DNA from: Dicyema japonicum
Lineage: Eukaryota > Dicyemida > Rhombozoa > Dicyemidae
Direction of reading: 5' to 3'
Length of the DNA stretch: 60,069 nucleotides
NCBI GenBank assembly: GCA_011109175.1
Contig: RDEW01000049.1
Location: 97,146-157,214 of the forward strand
Under the pieces are notes generated by a model, which had not been told where the DNA came from, did no database searches, and saw only the letters and a program-made list of their open reading frames with translations. The position numbers and the translations under genes were made by a program. Below, in pieces: positions 17,565 through 56,815 of this stretch (its first letter is position 1; every line of letters starts with the position of its first letter).

Positions 17565-18790
17565 GTCCTTTGAGATCGCATGAACGAGTTTCCTCAACTC
17601 TCCCCGATCCGTTGCAATTTGGAGTAGCCTTGATATAAGAATTCCCGTAACCTCCTCCACCGTGGATAGCTACCAAGTCTTTGGTCGGCCAGGTCTTCTC
17701 TTCCGAGTGATATTGCTCAGCATATTGGTTCTTTCAAGGGAATCAAAGCGGACAACATGCCCAAAAAACGCCATTCTGTGTTTTACGATTCTTCCTTTAG
17801 CGAAATGTCCGTTTCCACCCGTTTGAGTACATCAATGTTTTTAATTTAAAAGTCCAATGGATTCTTACTAACCTCCTTCAGTACCACAGCTCAAAAGCAT
17901 CAATTTTTCGTCTATCCACTTTTTTCAGTATCCATGATTCTCCGCGGAATAGGAAAACCGGTAACACGATTACATTAACCAGTCTGCATTTGGTCCTTAA
18001 TCAAACATCTTTGCTTTTCCAAATTCTATTCATTCTCTGGAAGGTGTCTCGTCCCATGGCAATTCGCCTCTTGATTTCCAAACCTCCGTCATTATTCCGA
18101 TTAATTAGACTTCCCAGAAAGACAAAATTATCTCAAATCTCTTGTTTCTTATTCCCAATTTTTTAGTTCCATTATTAGCAGTAGTCATAATTTCGGTCTT
18201 CTTGATATTTAGCAATAAACCAAAGACGACGCTCTATTCTCTGAATCTTAGAATCAACTCCCTGAGGCCATCCTCTGTTTCAGCCAGTAAGGTTGCATCG
18301 TCAGCATAGCGCAAATTATTGATGTTGCTTCATCCAATTTTAATCCCTTTTTTGATACAGTATCCAATTTAGTCATGATCATTTCGGCATAAATATTGAA
18401 TAGGATGGGAGATAATAAGCATCCTTGTCTTACTCCTTTACTAATTTTAAACCAATCGGTATCTCCATACACTGTTCTAACAGTAGCTTCTTGATCCTTA
18501 TAAAGAGATTTGATAAGCAATATCAGATGGGCATCGAATCCAAATTCTTTTAAAGCGGACCACAGCTTGTCATGTATAACGGAATCAAAAGCTTTCCGAT
18601 AGTCAATGAAGCACATGTATACACTCTTTTGGGATTCATGGGCTTTCTCCATAATCCACCGGACATTTGCTATATGGTCACGTGTGCCTCGTCCCTTCCT
18701 GAATCTTGCTTGGACATCCGGTAGAATCATTTCGGCATTTGGCATTAGACGATGTTGTATAATGTCACAGGCGCAACAGTTTATCAAATT
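17565..18790 (-). mobile_element. RTE-clade LINE, 5'-truncated, reverse transcriptase to 3' end
   Basis: The minus-strand ORF 18254-18787 carries finger and palm motifs: RFRKGRGTRDHIANVRW, motif A FIDYRKAFDSV and motif B GVRQGCLLSPILFNIYAE. After a frameshift near 18330 the next frame gives motif C, LRYADDATLLAETEDGL. Then come KTEIMTTA, LGSLINRNGG, the LPVFLFRGESWIL segment and the C-terminal LLQIATDRGEW near 17590. This order is that of RTE/BovB elements. The endonuclease half is missing. All catalytic Asp residues of the polymerase are present, but frameshifts make it dead. A second copy of its last 120 bp lies at 4365-4490. Confidence 0.85.
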
Positions 18791-19040
18791 AATGATTTAA
18801 TTTATCAAATTAATATATATAATTTGACCAAACTAGTGCAACAACAACAACAACGATTTATTGACAAAAGAGTTAAGGAGATTTCTGGAGGGTATTACAT
18901 CTGAGTCCTACCATAAGGCTTGGACTCCACACCTGGACCCTTCCTCCTTTTTTTTATTATTAATCTTTTTCGGAACGTTTCTCCCAGCTTTTTAATCTTT
19001 ATTCTCCCAGCTTTATGTATGTGTCCTGGACCTTTGATCT

Positions 19041-19672: not shown

Positions 19673-22039
19673 GTTTACTCACAGTGTGTTTTCTTGTTTC
19701 AGGTGCTTTTTCTAACTGCTTATTCGGAGTGCGCAAGATTTTTCAGCAGAGACTTTTAGCCCTCTCAAGTTGCACCAATGCTCAATCTGGTCGACATACT
19801 CCCGGATTCTTCCTTCGGATATAGAAGATTTTAGAGATGTGTCCACAACGATTACGTCATCTGCATAAATAAGAAGACTAGTATTAATATTCCTCGGACG
19901 TGGAAAACTCGCCATAAATATATTAAACAAAATAGGGCTCAATACTGAACCTTGAGGGACTCCTCTTTTGAATGATATTGCATCAGATATATATCCACAC
20001 ACCTTCACAAAAAATTGTTTTTCCTGAAGATAATTTCTTAGCCAAACAAATAGGTATCTTGGAACATATGCTGATACAAGCTGCTTTAACAACGCTTCAT
20101 GGCATACACTCTCGAATGTTTTAGAGATATCAAGACATAATAAGTTTATTTTTCTCTTAGAATCCTTTGCTTTCATGATCTCAGAATTCAGTAGAAAGAA
20201 ACAGTCTGTACAGCCTCTTCCGGGACGAAAACCACACTGCTCCGGAATCAGAAAGTTGTTTTCTTCTATATGTCTACTTAGCCTTTTGAAAATGATACGT
20301 TCAATCACTTTCGCGAAAGAACATATTAAGCTAATTGGTCTGTAGCTTGTCGGATCTCTCTTTGGCTTCCCTGGTTTTGGAATCATCCTCGCAACAGCTA
20401 TCTTCCATATTAAAGGCAAGTGGCCAAGTCGCAAACACCCATCATAAAAACATCGCAGATAGTCAAACAAACTATCCGGACACTCTTTGATAAGTTTCAT
20501 TGATATGTGGCCATATCCTGGAGCATTGACCTTGCATTCCCTGATAGCTGTCATCACTTCAAAGATGCTGACAGAGCTAACAGCAATAGGTAGTTCTCGT
20601 CGGAGTGTTCAAATATATCGGCAGACACCTTTTTTTGTCATCAGGGATCAAACTCCACGGATCCACACCCTGAATTTTTTGGAGCTGATCCCTGAATATC
20701 GAAGGTGTTTCCTTCGTTATGCATACTCCCCCGTCTGGTTTATCCAGTATAATTTTTTCTGGACCCGACTTCGGACACATTATCTTCTGACAGCATTTCC
20801 AAAAAAAGGGATTCTTCATATCAATTTTTGCAGCCTCAGCCTTTCCCCTCATAGTTGTTAAAATAACGATAGAAGAACTCGATAACCTTAAAAAAAACTT
20901 ACTCCCAGTTAGAAACGAGGTACTTACTAAGTAACCGAATAAGACCATTTCCGAGAAGGACTGGACTGACTTTATTGAGAATGCCTACACAAATCTATTG
21001 AGTCTACGGACGACTTTATTTTTCGATCATTTGTACCATTCTGTTTCACATAAGGACTTAATTTCGTAAATTTTTAAGATCCCCACCACGTGACGCTCCC
21101 GTGTGATAAAGAAGGCGACAAATATACAAGAGAATGCAACCCTTCTGACAATGAAGTAAATGAGTTGGTGAAAAGATCCTCTCAGGTTGTCATTGTCGCT
21201 TGAACTCATCGATAATAATGATAATATAAAAGACCTTGAAAATTGTATTGAGAATCTGGAGTTTTTGTTAAATGACGATTAGTTTTTTGATGTTTTTGTT
21301 AGATTTGCTTCCATATTTAAATTCGGTGATTTTTAGTCCGGTAGTTAAGTTTTTTACCGATGTTGCCTGACAGCCAGGGACATTCTACGGAGACATTGAT
21401 TTGGAGTTGTCTCAGAGGGGGAAACGATTAGATGGACTATAAGAAGGACAGTAATGGAGGGTACACTGCTTTCTATTTGTCAGGTTGCAACGCTTTTGCA
21501 TGACAGTTCCATTGTGAATGTGCTTTTGCATGACAGTTCCATCGTCTTCTCTGGGAGCGTCCAAACTGACTGGCATCACTAGTTCAATTACCATGTAAAG
21601 TGACATACTCACTAAACCAACTTAATATGAGGTCATTTAAAACAAACACTTGATAAACTCAGGGTTATGATAATTTCAACATTTCCAGAACTTTTGGGCA
21701 ATCTCACTAACACGATCCACCAACGTACGAAATACGTTTGGAATACAATTTTGAGACAGACATTGTTTAAGAGCAAAATCAGTTCAGAGATATAAATAAA
21801 CAACATTTAGATCACTATACAGAAATTATTTCACCAGCATCTAATATGGAAACAATTTAGATTGTCTTGTTACGTAATAAATCGTTTTTGTTCCAAAAAA
21901 TTATTGTGATAAAAAGTCTAGAAAAGTAGCTATTCGTTTATGAAGTTAATTTTTATTTTTTTATCATATTTTTAATTTATGTTTTTAAAACATTCAATAT
22001 TTTTTCCTAGTGATTGAAGTTGCTTGCGTTTTTTGTATT

Positions 22040-40448: not shown

Positions 40449-41300
40449 TTGTGCCGATTGGTTTTTGCTGTGAGTATGTTGATTTTTGGACAGTTTTTTA
40501 TGGGGATATTTGTTTTCAAGTATATGTTTTTCTTAACAAGTTTCTTGACTTCAAAAAGGAAGATGGTCATCCCATCGAATCTATTTGCGTCCGCCAATAC
40601 CCGTAAAAAGTACGGCGAGAAAATATCGAAACTGCTCAAAAAGGAAGATGGTCATTCCATCGAATCTATTTGCGTCCGCCAATACCCGTAAAAAGTACGG
40701 CGAGAAAATATCGAAACTGCTGGAAAATGTTGACACGAATATGTAACTTGGACTGCATTGGAAGAATATTTCGATCAGAGTTAGTCAGGCTGTTGTGATC
40801 GTACTTGGAAATCATCCAAGGATGCTCAAATGAACTTTTAACAAAGAAATAGAAAAATTGAAAAAAAACTAGTAGAGATTCCGACTCTTGATTAAGTCTT
40901 CAAACTTGACAAGGTTCACTGACCCTCTTAAAAGAGAACGCAACAGAACCATATCAAAATAAATAGAAGAGTGAAAGAATCGCCCGGCATATTTGGATAA
41001 CTTGGCAAGTGAATGTTTGATGTGGTTAAACAATTATCCCGCAATATCAGTTCTTGTAAATGACGGAAAGGATGATATTACTACATCATTAAATACTTCA
41101 TCTAAGGGCTACTTTCTACTTTTTGGCTCCATCAGTTCTCAAAAGGTCTCATCAGATCCATTTAAATCATAAGACGTCAATCCAAAAAGGATCTCTCTTT
41201 TCACCCACATCAGAATACTTTACCCGGATGTATATAATCAAACGTTCGATTGGATGATAATTTATTGAAAGATTTAAGCAAGTGAAACACCTGCTTCTCA
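40449..41300 (+). pseudogene. Degenerate coding-like region with an 84-bp tandem duplication
   Basis: ORF 40449-40691 has a hydrophobic start (LIFGQFFMGIFVFKYMFFL). It then runs through two copies of an 84-bp block (GAAGATGGTCATCCCATCG at 40560 and, with one change, at 40644). In different frames the block codes for NLFASANTRKKYGEKISKLL. Downstream to 41300, frames such as EIEKLKKKLVEIPTLD and PAYLDNLASECLMWLNNYPA alternate. I cannot find a consistent splice pattern and treat it as a decayed gene or element. Confidence 0.3.
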
Positions 41301-41605: not shown

Positions 41606-41959
41606 GCACGTTGTATCATCAGAATAAACACATTTGTTAATCTATAATCAAAAAAGTAGATAACCTTCTGTCGTTCCCTCTCCCAAATCATTACTAATTT
41701 TGGAGTTAATCCGTTTTTTTCGTGCCATCTTCTTGGCTCGATTTTTGCAAATAACATCTACAATGATGTAAAAATAAACCTGCGAACAATTGCTTTGATA
41801 TTCCCACAATCTCCCTTCGACCTATATTTTAATTAACAACAAACGTCCACTGTGAAGATAATCTATCTTTCACCATTAACTGTATCCAATCCTACAATAC
41901 TTACTCATTGGATTTTTTATGTCCAGGGGGTCCTATCTCTGAAATTACTATCCTTCCCC
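41606..41959 (-). pseudogene. Diverged partial copy of the 3' exons of the nine-exon gene
   Basis: This aligns with 41961-42312 at roughly 85-88% by eye. The equivalents of exons 7 and 8 remain open (REIVGISKQLF, then DVICKNRAKKMA ... LGEGTTED), and their tiny introns sit at the same places with diverged sequence (one 22 nt, one 23 nt). The exon 6 equivalent has a net 2-base loss and stop codons, so this copy is dead or partial. The pair is separated by an N at 41960. The divergence is too large for simple contig overlap of one allele. Confidence 0.6.
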
Positions 41960-41988
41960 NCGTTGTATCATCAGAATAAACACATTTG

Positions 41989-43293
41989 TTAATCTATAAT
42001 CAAAAAAGTAGATAACCTTCTGTCGTTCCCTCTCCCAAAACATAACTAGATTTGGGGTTAATCCGTTTTTCTGGTGCCATTTTCTTAGCTCGATTTTTAC
42101 GAATAACATCTACAATGATGTGTAAACAAACCTTCGAATGATGGATTTGATATTCCCACAATCTCCGTACCACCTATATTTTAATCAACAACAGACGTCC
42201 ACTGTTCAGATACTCTATCTTTTCACCAATAAGAGAATCCAATCCTAAAACCCTAACTTTTTTAGATCTTCTATGTCCAGTGGGTCCTCTCTCTGGGATC
42301 ACTATCCTTCCTCGAATTCCCTGATTAGACAATACCTAAAATATAAAAAACGGACAACCTCATTTATTCCACGGAATCTCTCTACCATTTCATCATAGTT
42401 TTCTAATTTCGTGAGTTTGATCATTGAATCATTCACTTTACGTCTTCTTTGTTTTTTATTATATTTTGGCTAAAATGAGCACAAATAAACTCTAATATTT
42501 TTCATATCACTCATCTTTATGTCAGTCATGACTTGTGCGTCTTTACAAGAAACACTACAGTTAGTTAATTTAATACATTTTCTTATTGGGAATATTCCGA
42601 ACAGTTGAATGTTCATTAACATCTGAGTGAATTGGCTTATCACGAGACATTGAACTTTTCATTATCTTTGGTATAACCAATCTATCATCTGGACTTCCGA
42701 CATTCCTTATAGGACTCACTAATACAACATAAATATGAATGGAACCTCTGGGGACAATAGAGTCATCCTCGATATTTTCCACTATCGTCTCTCTTCCAAT
42801 ATTATCATCCATAGTCTCCACCAGCATAGTATTCGCCCCAGTATTATCTTCTATAATCTCCTCTAATAGGGTACCTTTCCTAAAATTCTTCTCTGTGTAT
42901 CTTTCATTTCTTTGGTAATTTATTTTTTCCAAATATGCAGACTTTCTAGGAATTAAAACATCTTGTAGAGAAGACATCGAAGGTGATGGTATCCTAATAT
43001 CCCCACGACTTTCGATTTTGTTAGAAAATAAATTCAAAAATTGGATCTAAATATTATAAATAGGAATACAAAAGGAGGATCGTTATTTCGGGGATCTATT
43101 ATTTTATTAAAAGTTTCATCACTGTCGACAGGGATACTGCAGTAATTGCCGTAATGTTTATTAACAAGTTGTTGTTTATCATCAGTAATACCTGTAAATG
43201 TAAATAATATTAGTTACTGTCAAGACGTATCAGTTTGTGTGTCCTAGCTAACCTTCCATTTCTATATTTTTTAACACGCTCACTGTCTCTCAT
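41989..43293 (-). CDS. Nine-exon gene with eight introns of 21-26 nt; product unrecognised
   Basis: Exons: 43218-43293, 43070-43191, 42577-43046, 42491-42554, 42359-42469, 42197-42335, 42132-42173, 42017-42109, 41989-41993. Introns are 26, 23, 22, 21, 23, 23, 22 and 23 nt, all GT-AG and AT-rich. The exons sum to 1122 nt: exactly 374 codons from ATG to TAA, no internal stop, with phases 0, 1 and 2 all represented and matched. The 373-aa product is hydrophilic: MRDSERVKKYRNGRLARTH at the start, an acidic middle (ETMDDNIGRETIVENIEDD), a basic KYNKKQRRRKVND patch and SNPSFEDVIRKNRAKK near the end. There is no signal peptide or membrane segment and no family I know. The reading upstream of the ATG stays open for 13 codons, so an earlier exon is possible. 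The unspliced DNA shows only one 155-codon ORF. Confidence 0.8.
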
Positions 43294-43400
43294 CACAACA
43301 GAAAATAATGTCTGCCTAATTTTATTTATTTTATTAATTATTTTTATTTATTTATTTGACATTAATCAATTATTTTTATTTATTTATTTGACATTCTTTA

Positions 43401-43505
43401 ATCATGTGTGGTGATGTTGAACCTAACCATGGACCAGTTTCATTTCAGCCAAAGTTGAAGATACTCCAGTTGAGCATAAACGAACTTTCCAAAAAAATGT
43501 GTTGA
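43401..43505 (+). mobile_element. Start of a LINE ORF2 with a 2A-like peptide
   Basis: The frame reads IMCGDVEPNHGPVSFQPKLK then ILQLSINELS and stops. D-V-E-x-N-x-G-P is the 2A-like ribosome-skipping signature, here with His for the first Pro of NPGP. In many CR1/L2-type LINEs it sits directly before the endonuclease start (LKILQLNINGL). The rest of the element is missing or replaced by the fragment at 43512. Confidence 0.62.
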
Positions 43506-43511
43506 TTTACA

Positions 43512-44810
43512 CACATTTTTTGGCTTGAAACAGTGCAAACTTCGGACCTTTCAAGATGGCCTTGGCCTCAAATCTTTTGCCGAAATTTCGCTCCTTGCCT
43601 TACTTTTTCGCAATCGTTGTGTGGACGTTTTTTGGCACTCACCAGAAAGAGTTAAGATTACCTCGGATTGAAATTCTTAAGGTGCTATTCAGTTCAAACT
43701 CAAAGTGATTTTTTGTCTCCTGTGAGAGCATCAGGCTTCATAATAAATTTGTCCGACAAAGATATACTAAAACATGTATTTACTTGGTTCGTTTCTTGAA
43801 ATCCGCAATTGCTTCCTACACACCAAATTGGCATCAGGCTTCATAATAAATTTGTTAGACAAAGATATACTAAAACATCTATTTACTTGGTTCGTTTCTT
43901 GTAATCTGCAATTGCTTCCTACACACTAAATTGTTTATTAAATCTCCTAGCCTTCTAGAAGACAAAGAAATCTTGGATACGGATATTTACTACCCTAGCG
44001 ATTGGTTCGGACAGCAGAGTTGTCTTCGAAGATAATGTTGTGTGTTCTCTTTAGAGACTAGTTGCTTGGAGCACTCCTATTTGACCTGACTGTGGATGAT
44101 GTCGCATGCAAAGTGCTTTCTCTATTAAACGTATGGTATATGGATGAAGTGGAGGCCCTTATGACTCCGTCTTGATAGACATCTATGTCATTAACAACTC
44201 TAAGGAGACTTTGATTATCAACATCTCTATATGCGCCCAAGATTTAGTTTTCGTAGCCGGAGCTTTAGAGAACAGTTTACGAGATAAAGGATCGGGAAGT
44301 GGGTGAATTTTAATTCCTTAAGATTTGCTTTGGTGACGACAGAAAGCTCTTTTCTCGAAAAACTCTCTGCTACACTCTATATCAGAGAAACGCAAAAAAA
44401 TTTAAGGTTGAATCGACGATGCTTAGGATGTCCTATGCTAAGAATCCTTGATTCACACATGGGTTCTTCCTGCTGAAAAATTGTCTTTCTTACTCTTTGT
44501 TCTGGGATACTCGTCATCATTTAATCACAGGGACATCCTAAACACCATCAACTCAAATCCTTAGTGGAGGGAATTTTTTTATTTAGCTCAACGATCTAGG
44601 CTTGATACAGTGCAATCCCCGGACCTTTCAAGATGGTCTAGGCCTCAAATATTTGGCCGAAATTTTGCTCCTTGCATTTCTTTTTTCGTGTGCTTCATGT
44701 GTTTGCCTTTCGTCGAGATTTTACTCAACACTTTAAGATCTTTTCTTGAGAGTGTATCTCTAACTAGTCACGTAGCCGCTTTATTAGGGATAGATTTGTA
44801 GTGGGTGAAC
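43512..44810 (+). mobile_element. Fragments of a LINE reverse transcriptase of unassigned clade
   Basis: Around 44070 the frame gives LLGALLFDLTVDDVACKVLS then LNVWYMDEVEALM. This corresponds to a palm with motif B remnants and motif C (WYMDD, the second Asp now Glu). Near 44590-44800 frames give LNDLGLIQC, GLGLKYLAEI and a Cys-rich C-terminus. The same C-terminal block occurs at 43512-43690 (LGLKSFAEISLLALLF). In between, a 90-100 bp block (CATCAGGCTTCATAATAAAT) is duplicated at 43735 and 43834. All are degenerate. Confidence 0.55.
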
Positions 44811-55239: not shown

Positions 55240-56815
55240 AGCACTTCCTACAAATCCGTGCACTTTTTTGGAGGAGACTCGTCATGTCAGGAAATGTTGA
55301 AATGAATCAGAGACCAAAGGCATTAAAGATCTTAGCCTGAACATTAACGGAGTTAGAGGCAAGGCATCCGAACTGAGTATATTTTTGGAGAGGAATAAAA
55401 TTGACATCGGTTTTCTACAAGAGACCAAGCTTTCTGGGGAATCCATTACTTCTAAATTTACCGGCTTCAATGTATTGAGAGTCGNGGCATTAAAGATACT
55501 TAGCCTGAACATTAACGGAGTTAAAGGCAAGGCATTCGAACTGAGTTCATATTTGGAGAGGAATAAAATTGACATCGGTTTTCTACAAGAGACCAAGCTT
55601 TCTGGGGAATCCATTACTTTTAAATTTACCGGCTTCAATGTATTGAGAGTCGACTGACAATCGGGCCGAGTTGGAGGACTATTGAACGTCGTCAGGAGAG
55701 GCATTATGTTCGATATACACTCCTCCATATTCAGGAATCTGATAGAAGATGCAAACACAGAAGTTATTGGGATTTCGGTATAGATCTTTCTCGGAGCTAT
55801 CCCAACGTCTATCCTCCCCTCCAGGTTCCTGTACAAAAGGATTTTCTATGGATTTGTTTGCCCTAGATATGATGGAAAAATTGTTGTTGTCCAAGATTTA
55901 ATGCCAAGCACCCTTCATGGTATGAGAAACAACCTCCAGACACAAGGGGGTTTCATATTACTTCCCAGTTAGAAAATCTGTCCATTATTAACGACACAAC
56001 TAGGAATACACGAACCTCGTATAATAGCAAGGATTCGGTTACATCACCGGATATTACGTTATGTTCACCACGGCTTGCTTTGCTTATATGCTGGTCTGTA
56101 AACTATGACTTACGAAGTGACCATAATTCCAATCTGATCAAGATCAATTGTACACCAATGACGCGGTCAAAACTCATCATTTTTATGACTATATTAATTC
56201 TGAATGGACAAGATTCAGAAGATACGTGGATTCGGCACTAGTGAATTTCCATCAGAATAATTTCAACTCAATTGTAAAGCAGCCTATCACTTTAATAAAG
56301 TGATTTTGGAAGGGAGGAAACTATTTATCAGGAAAGGAATCGTAAAGCTCAGAAATATGAGGCAAGCACAATCAAACTAATAAAAGAAAGGAATCGTCTC
56401 AAACGTAAAAAGCACTTAACAAAACATGATACTAACAGAATCCGTGGACTGAACATGAAGATCAACGAAAAAACGAAAATTATCCAAAAACAAAACTGGG
56501 CCGAATTTCTAGAGCTATGAAGAAAATAGTTCACTTACCAAGATGTGGAGGATGCTGCGGAATGTTAAAAATGCAGAAAACAACATCAAGTTAGAACGTG
56601 AAAAAGAAGTGTATCTGAATAAATAAGCCACATACAATTCAAAAAATTGACATTCCCCCACATAAAAATCCGAAAGCGAAAAGGAGACACTCAACAATGT
56701 ATGTTCTATCGTAAGATGTCGCTTTGAAGATCTATTGAACAAAAACACATATTTCTGTGTGCCGGACGGGATCCCGGTTATTAATAATGATAATCAAGCC
56801 TTTTCACAAGAGCCA
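55240..56815 (+). mobile_element. LINE ORF2: endonuclease and linker, decayed
   Basis: From 55321 the frame reads LSLNINGVRGKASELS (one mutated base at the start), then RNKIDIGFLQETKLSGESIT and KFTGFNVLRVD. This is the beginning of an AP-like endonuclease (N-I-N-G and QET motifs). The 167-bp start is present twice, on either side of the N at 55485. Further right, GRVGGLLNVVRRGIMFDIHS, NTEVIGISV and long basic helices (to about 56700: KMWRMLRNVKNAENNIKLER) continue endonuclease and linker. Frameshifts and stops throughout. A SINE copy starts where it ends. Confidence 0.68.

Follow-up and report, generated by a model that had tools for sequence, protein, structure and literature searches.

The window analysed here, i.e., the whole stretch of 60,069 nucleotides of the Dicyema japonicum genome (C136:97146-157214), carries a spliced frame of nine exons on its minus strand, running from 43293 to 41989. 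Removal of eight GT-AG segments (26, 23, 22, 21, 23, 23, 22 and 23 nt in order) leaves 373 codons and a TAA, i.e., 374 from ATG to TAA. The eight introns and the exact frame given in a preliminary description of this DNA were thus regained, as was its statement that only 155 codons are open without splicing, the longest unspliced open reading frame being 155 aa at 42570-43037 (-). The features of this locus (hereafter the window copy) and of its immediate surroundings are listed below; L numbers denote other loci in the genome.

43218..43293, minus strand: exon 1, 76 nt, ATG at 43293
43192..43217, minus strand: intron 1, 26 nt; found at this position in five further copies, with a length of 20 nt in L013 and L014
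43070..43191, minus strand: exon 2, 122 nt
43047..43069, minus strand: intron 2, 23 nt
42577..43046, minus strand: exon 3, 470 nt; contains acidic Ser/Thr repeats that are expanded in L048
42555..42576, minus strand: intron 3, 22 nt; contains CTAAC
42491..42554, minus strand: exon 4, 64 nt
42470..42490, minus strand: intron 4, 21 nt
42359..42469, minus strand: exon 5, 111 nt
42336..42358, minus strand: intron 5, 23 nt; last G of the acceptor altered in the twin copy L009
42197..42335, minus strand: exon 6, 139 nt; holds the putative CENP-C motif
42301..42302, minus strand: site in exon 6 where a 24-25 nt intron of sister copies is absent; relative to L048 the loss is base-exact
42210..42272, minus strand: putative CENP-C motif, codons 303-323 (RRSKKVRVLGLDSLIGEKIEY); Lys at the place of human Arg 742 (codon 307)
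42174..42196, minus strand: intron 6, 23 nt
42132..42173, minus strand: exon 7, 42 nt
42110..42131, minus strand: intron 7, 22 nt
42017..42109, minus strand: exon 8, 93 nt
41994..42016, minus strand: intron 8, 23 nt
41993..41994, minus strand: deletion breakpoint; about 333 bp (L048 3704-4037) including the cupin region gone, in common with L009 and L010
41989..41993, minus strand: exon 9, 5 nt, up to the TAA
41960: single N, probably a collapsed assembly gap
41609..41870 (core), minus strand: partial duplicate of exons 6-9, with 90% identity to 41961-42222 at a spacing of 352

When GT-AG segments of 21-26 nt were chosen freely, the longest spliced frame in 60 dinucleotide shuffles of the locus was 64.5 aa at the median and 206 aa at most, and none of the 60 reached 373. 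Among 158 tiles of 1500 nt from both strands of the window, one reached at least 373 aa (446 aa, tile from 19501 minus) and overlaps a reverse transcriptase ORF, and the second best (352 aa, from 42001 minus) is the window copy itself, clipped by the tile edge. As no shuffle exceeded 206 codons and the sole tile reaching 373 overlaps a reverse transcriptase ORF, these tests argue that the 373-codon frame is not a product of chance. Alternative intron choices at the window copy give 377, 384 or 400 aa, and its predicted intron boundaries are not uniquely fixed by sequence alone.

The window holds nine single Ns that look like collapsed gaps, and the stretch of exons 6-9 that is duplicated here occurs as a single copy in L009. 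Tandem duplications flank the gene at 40551-40720 (85 nt, 99%) and 43728-43933 (103 nt, 94%). Upstream, on the opposite strand to the gene, 43404-43436 (+) reads MCGDVEPNHGP, which we take to be close to a 2A-like peptide; related sequence lies in the upstream flanks of L009 and L010, and the stretch is possibly the leader of a LINE fragment. Other LINE remains in the window are reverse transcriptase (PF00078) at 18254-18796 and 19712-20608 (-) and an endonuclease-reverse transcriptase domain (PF14529) at 55873-56241 (+). Rfam at gathering scores and ARAGORN returned nothing across the window.

Relationship to centromere protein C

The product had been described as matching no known family, a claim that did not survive comparison with its relatives: judged by the alignments given here, the window copy derives from centromere protein C (CENP-C), which contributes to the anchoring of chromosomes when cells divide. 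A putative CENP-C motif lies in exon 6 and the cupin in a fuller copy, L048, so that the window copy is CENP-C-derived rather than a complete CENP-C. Direct searches were silent. A Pfam scan of the spliced window protein gave nothing at E up to 10, a protein database search with the same protein gave 3831 candidates with none at E ≤ 1, a search with residues 415-601 of the L048 read-through gave 724 candidates and no match, and the L048 cupin had no match in NCBIfam.

Against PDB, the first L048 read-through had three CENP-C chains, matched at the CENP-C motif, among 7 matches (best E 0.28). With phmmer, the motif-plus-cupin read-through of L048 placed human CENP-C (7xhn_C) first of 5 (E 0.0062), with CENP-C also at ranks 2 and 4 and ribosomal proteins at ranks 3 and 5. 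The human match runs through the motif (719-774) and then the cupin (856-928), in the same order in both proteins; taken singly, the two domains are not significant against human CENP-C (i-E 1.2 and 62). A profile of the motif region, built from the eight copies in which it was used (copies with no readable motif region, e.g., L014 and L065, were not included), had CENP-C chains as the first four of its 6 matches (best E 0.022), and the reversed L048 read-through, run as a control, matched nothing at E up to 10. Residues 276-364 of the window protein align with CENP-C chain 7by0_K, the second of 6 matches (E 0.079), and this alignment spans junctions 5, 6 and 7. The best PDB match of the window protein is CENP-U (28op_U, E 0.036, residues 188-279; 7pb8_U, 0.65), which we take as chance in a charged stretch.

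The cupin region of L048 contains two in-frame TAGs. With two GT-AG introns (27 and 26 nt) read out, it matches Pfam CENP-C_C at E 3e-4 and 21.4 bits, against a cut-off of 29. The reading with the 27-nt intron gives the value relied on here; with X at the TAGs E is 0.006 (0.064 for a longer piece), and with a stretch omitted and a different end it is 6.7e-6. None of the Pfam CENP-C_C matches lies above the curated cut-off (14-27 bits versus 29). PF11699 searched against the whole genome in six frames gave one weak match, L083 (E 0.016), and missed L048 and L042. L083 was rejected as a CENP-C cupin and attributed to chance, as no CENP-C motif was seen around it and only short repeat pieces are common to other loci. 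The individual CENP-C scores are weak; at the level of sequence, it is the order of the domains, the ranks and the reversed control that together make the case.

In M18BP1/KNL2 the motif occurs without a cupin and together with a SANTA domain; this identity was rejected, as L048 and L042 have a cupin after the motif and Pfam, scanned up to an E of 10, showed no SANTA domain. A CENP-C-like motif has been described in M18BP1/KNL2 of some vertebrates (PMC4830207).

Weak matches in the genome-wide family search led to three further relatives, L042 (C1:650679), L044 (C34:1138756) and L046 (C158:179037). In a spliced alignment free to choose introns, L042 (introns of 24, 22, 37, 26 and 23 nt) and L044 (22-44 nt) have open spliced frames through both motif and cupin; L046 has 96% identity to L044 and contains one frameshift. 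L042 matches Pfam CENP-C_C at E 1.1e-4 (22.8 bits, under the curated cut-off), and CENP-C chains are the top two of its 5 PDB matches (E 2.9e-4 and 0.097). L042 and L044 are candidates for the working CENP-C of this animal, and better ones than the window copy.

Dispersed copies and their introns

Searches of the 64.67 Mb genome (191 contigs) turned up parts of the gene at no fewer than 17 loci, spread over 14 contigs, these counts being lower bounds: C136, C115 (two), C170, C87, C45 (two), C1:63k, C129, C131, C173, C89, C5, C96, C166 (two) and C126. Some of them could be uncollapsed haplotypes, though most differ by far more than the published heterozygosity of 1.24%. The nearest to the window copy is L009 (C115:838k), which differs at 38 of 1122 exon bases; the other places found in the first genome search are 66-82% identical to the window copy.

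The copies differ in two stretches. An extra GT-AG stretch of 24-25 nt in the middle of exon 6 is present in L010, L048, L013, L049 and L054 and missing from the window copy and L009, and about 333 bp after intron 8, wholly or mostly present in L048, L050, L054, L049 and L013, is missing from the window copy, L009 and L010. In L048 both stretches have a TAG at each edge, so that deletion by microhomology would be a simple cause. Exon 3 has an acidic Ser/Thr repeat of TERDSVSKETIKDT type, which has grown into a tandem array in L048 (2169-2700). Directly upstream of the ATG, 43294-43360 holds GGCGGACATTATTTT...TGTGATG in several copies; together with 41980-41988 this flank shows 30 differences in 316 positions across 7 alignable copies and seems better kept than the exons. 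A promoter or start-site element may lie here, unless the effect comes from where local alignments end.

The preliminary description regarded such short introns as known from few lineages. A dicyemid-type lineage fits, but the rarity was overstated, as they are normal in this genome. Actin and tubulin proteins were spliced onto nine loci, several of which also required a frameshift, and gave 14 distinct introns; 12 of these measure 22-31 nt and the other two 49 and 78 nt, so introns of 21-26 nt are ordinary here. Published reports give, for the Dicyema japonicum genome, 67.5 Mb with 4.1% gaps, a GC content of 36.7% and a mean intron of 38 bp (PMC6736024), and a median intron of 27 bp for Dicyema sp. 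(PMC6543705).

The introns of the window copy recur among its relatives. Introns 3-7 lie at the same places and in the same phases in L048 and L010, intron 8 aligns in L009, L010, L011 and L012/L048, and introns 1 and 2 align in L009, L011, L012, L013 and L014, with intron 2 also in L065; even in diverged copies the positions are the same and the lengths nearly equal. Exons and introns were compared across 15 copies, with 14 (without the twin L009) used for splice-base counts; the comparison left out C166:56321 (L038) and short 5'- or 3'-only fragments (C152, C166:110647, C81 and C111 among them), and for C45b (L076) the alignment covered just 11 exon bases. The GT/AG bases differ at 18 of 248 positions versus 236 of 1152 for other intron bases (Fisher p 1.6e-7, indicative only as the copies are related), and in L010 and L048 together the corresponding counts are 0 of 56 and 46 of 261. 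Outside the splice sites, intron bases diverge like exons (0.205 versus 0.22-0.23). As the splice bases changed less than the rest, the introns look real and would have been under splicing constraint during part of the family's history.

Probable decay of the window copy and spread of the family

Codon 307 is Lys in the window copy and Arg in L009, and the Arg base is kept in eight of the nine other copies aligned there, so the arginine of RxxxxP was lost on the window branch. The cupin is also gone: its region is deleted, and the L048 cupin peptide matches five places, none of them at the window copy. These two losses make a CENP-C function of the window copy unlikely.

The preliminary description held that a lack of codon periodicity in the joined exons would speak against a gene, and the outcome is divided. 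Exon differences fall evenly on codon positions 1, 2 and 3 (546/2392, 552/2392 and 538/2398 over all copies), with no periodicity over 14 copies together (p 0.63), which counts against present function; 12 of these 14 carry exon indels not divisible by three. A third-position excess is seen in L037 and L045, where mainly the motif exon aligns (47/118 versus 44/231, p 5e-5, a pair picked after seeing the table), and weakly in L010 (p 0.03). The positive control, L042 versus L044, has a clear coding pattern (55/36/110 differences by codon position in 178 codons). Periodicity in the motif exon and in L042/L044, and not in the pooled copies, points to an ancestor that was coding and copies that have decayed. 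When the differences between the window copy and L009 were placed with ten other copies as outgroups, the window branch received 16 nonsynonymous and 3 synonymous changes and the L009 branch 13 and 5 (one unplaced; random expectation 24% synonymous), so that no protein constraint is detectable on the window branch. In L009 the altered acceptor of intron 5 leaves the frame open only with a 17-nt intron 5. The spliced frame of the window copy has neither stop nor frameshift, which is unusual in a pseudogene; as 3.8% of random changes make stops, its 19 exon changes predict fewer than one. What had been called a gene is therefore one in its coding origin and nine exons, but it is one of at least 17 copies, truncated and without detectable protein constraint. 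It is structurally open and probably non-functional as CENP-C.

The best explanation, to which we give a probability of about 0.8, is that the window copy, C-terminally truncated and decayed, belongs to a set of at least 17 copies of a CENP-C-derived gene whose introns of about 20-30 nt are normal for the genome. The ancestral gene would have been a working kinetochore scaffold, its protein binding CenH3 nucleosomes through the motif and dimerising through the cupin. Duplication at the DNA level would then have scattered it with its introns, carrying neighbouring DNA along, and the scattered copies would have decayed. Even if transcribed and spliced, the window copy would most likely have no CENP-C function.

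An unlikely alternative is that a piece of a host gene was spread by a transposable element, for example beside a LINE with a 2A-like leader. It would account for at least 17 dispersed copies and for the 2A-like peptide, or its remnant, upstream on the other strand in the window, L009 and L010. However, the copies retained their introns, so no RNA step was involved in their spread, the ends of the shared stretch vary among copies, and in L048, L009 and L011 the shared unit is not bounded by inverted repeats. In the best inverted pair (L009 1340-1365/2296-2321, 26 nt, 96% complementary), one arm falls where exon 6 begins, and the pair resembles a partial inverted duplication next to the twin copy. 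Furthermore, a pseudouridine synthase gene follows L048 on the opposite strand (PF00849, E 2.5e-14, L048:4605-4856), and the stretch L048 4037-4679, which is also in L009 (77%), extends to the edge of the PF00849 match, which fits segmental duplication. A 41-aa piece within that stretch, presumably the end of the same domain, has no Pfam match at E ≤ 0.001.

It is rather improbable that the window copy is a young working paralogue, i.e., that it encodes a CENP-C-like protein of 373 aa, spliced and without a cupin, under relaxed or diversifying selection. Of the 11 other copies read (several partial), none has a spliced frame that stays open throughout with introns of at least 20 nt, the ratio of 16 to 3 is compatible with fast change, and the flanks are little changed among the seven copies. 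The same ratio is nevertheless the neutral expectation, the RxxxxP arginine and the cupin are gone, a partial duplicate and an N adjoin the copy, and better kept candidates (L042 and L044) exist elsewhere in the genome. Bolder and very improbable is the proposal that the animal scatters CENP-C copies and rewires its centromere interface, with the window copy a spliced, cupin-less competitor of the full protein. A chance GT-AG assembly in AT-rich DNA with no gene history has a negligible probability: other intron choices also give long frames and the pooled copies show no codon periodicity, but the shuffles fall far short, splice bases are conserved across copies and the CENP-C alignment spans three junctions.

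The centromere interface and comparison with known systems

The reading preferred here makes an apparent orphan gene recognisable as a copy of a centromere gene, and points to L042 and L044 as better kept CENP-C candidates, and to CenH3-like genes, in dicyemids. It also illustrates that homology can be masked by ultra-short introns and rapid change, given that Pfam on the window protein and the genome-wide cupin search both missed it. Decaying copies with introns of 20-26 nt furthermore form a natural series in which to see which intron bases matter. Short dicyemid introns are already known; possibly new are the many decayed copies of CENP-C and a motif lacking the tryptophan, and no report of dicyemid centromere-protein work or of this CENP-C copy family was found in searches of the open-licence literature.

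Three histone H3-like genes were found with Pfam Histone: L084 (C115:2077000-2077550), L085 (C45:34250-34750) and L087 (C110:221350-221900). By eye they resemble CenH3. Their loop 1 is about two residues longer than in the H3-like L088, and they stop right after the histone fold (LAQRLR or LAQRLRF), without a CENP-A-type tail. The core of L087 is tandemly duplicated in frame, and L084 and L085 seem to shift frame by one base close to a run of A.

The vertebrate CENP-C motif has the consensus RxxRxxxxPLxYWxGERxxY, in which the Tyr-Trp pair binds the nucleosome. In the dicyemid family the P, Y and W are replaced, whereas L048 keeps both Arg, the L, GER and the final Y. YW is absent from its place in all 12 readable copies (window, L009, L048, L010, L011, L013, L061, L054, L050, L037, L038 and L045; in L010 this site is out of frame), both residues are missing from L044 and L042 has only a Tyr, at the Trp place, so the interface of this animal may differ in general. 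The tail-less CenH3-like genes and the loss of the Tyr-Trp pair could go together.

Like CENP-C/Mif2 (motif and PF11699 cupin), L048, L042 and L044 have a C-terminal cupin after the motif; the window copy differs in lacking the cupin and the second Arg, and this genome in its many decayed copies. The introns are like those of dicyemids generally (Dicyema japonicum and Dicyema sp.), i.e., GT-AG, 20-30 nt and several in each gene; nothing essential differs, and the eight of the window copy (21-26 nt) lie at the short end. A parallel to the family as a whole is the Drosophila montium group, for which the available text of the report describes Cenp-C duplicates, relocations and pseudogene fragments (PMC12724597). 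There too the gene was moved or copied with its introns kept and fragments remained, but with one or a few Cenp-C copies per genome, as far as that text goes, versus at least 17 loci here.
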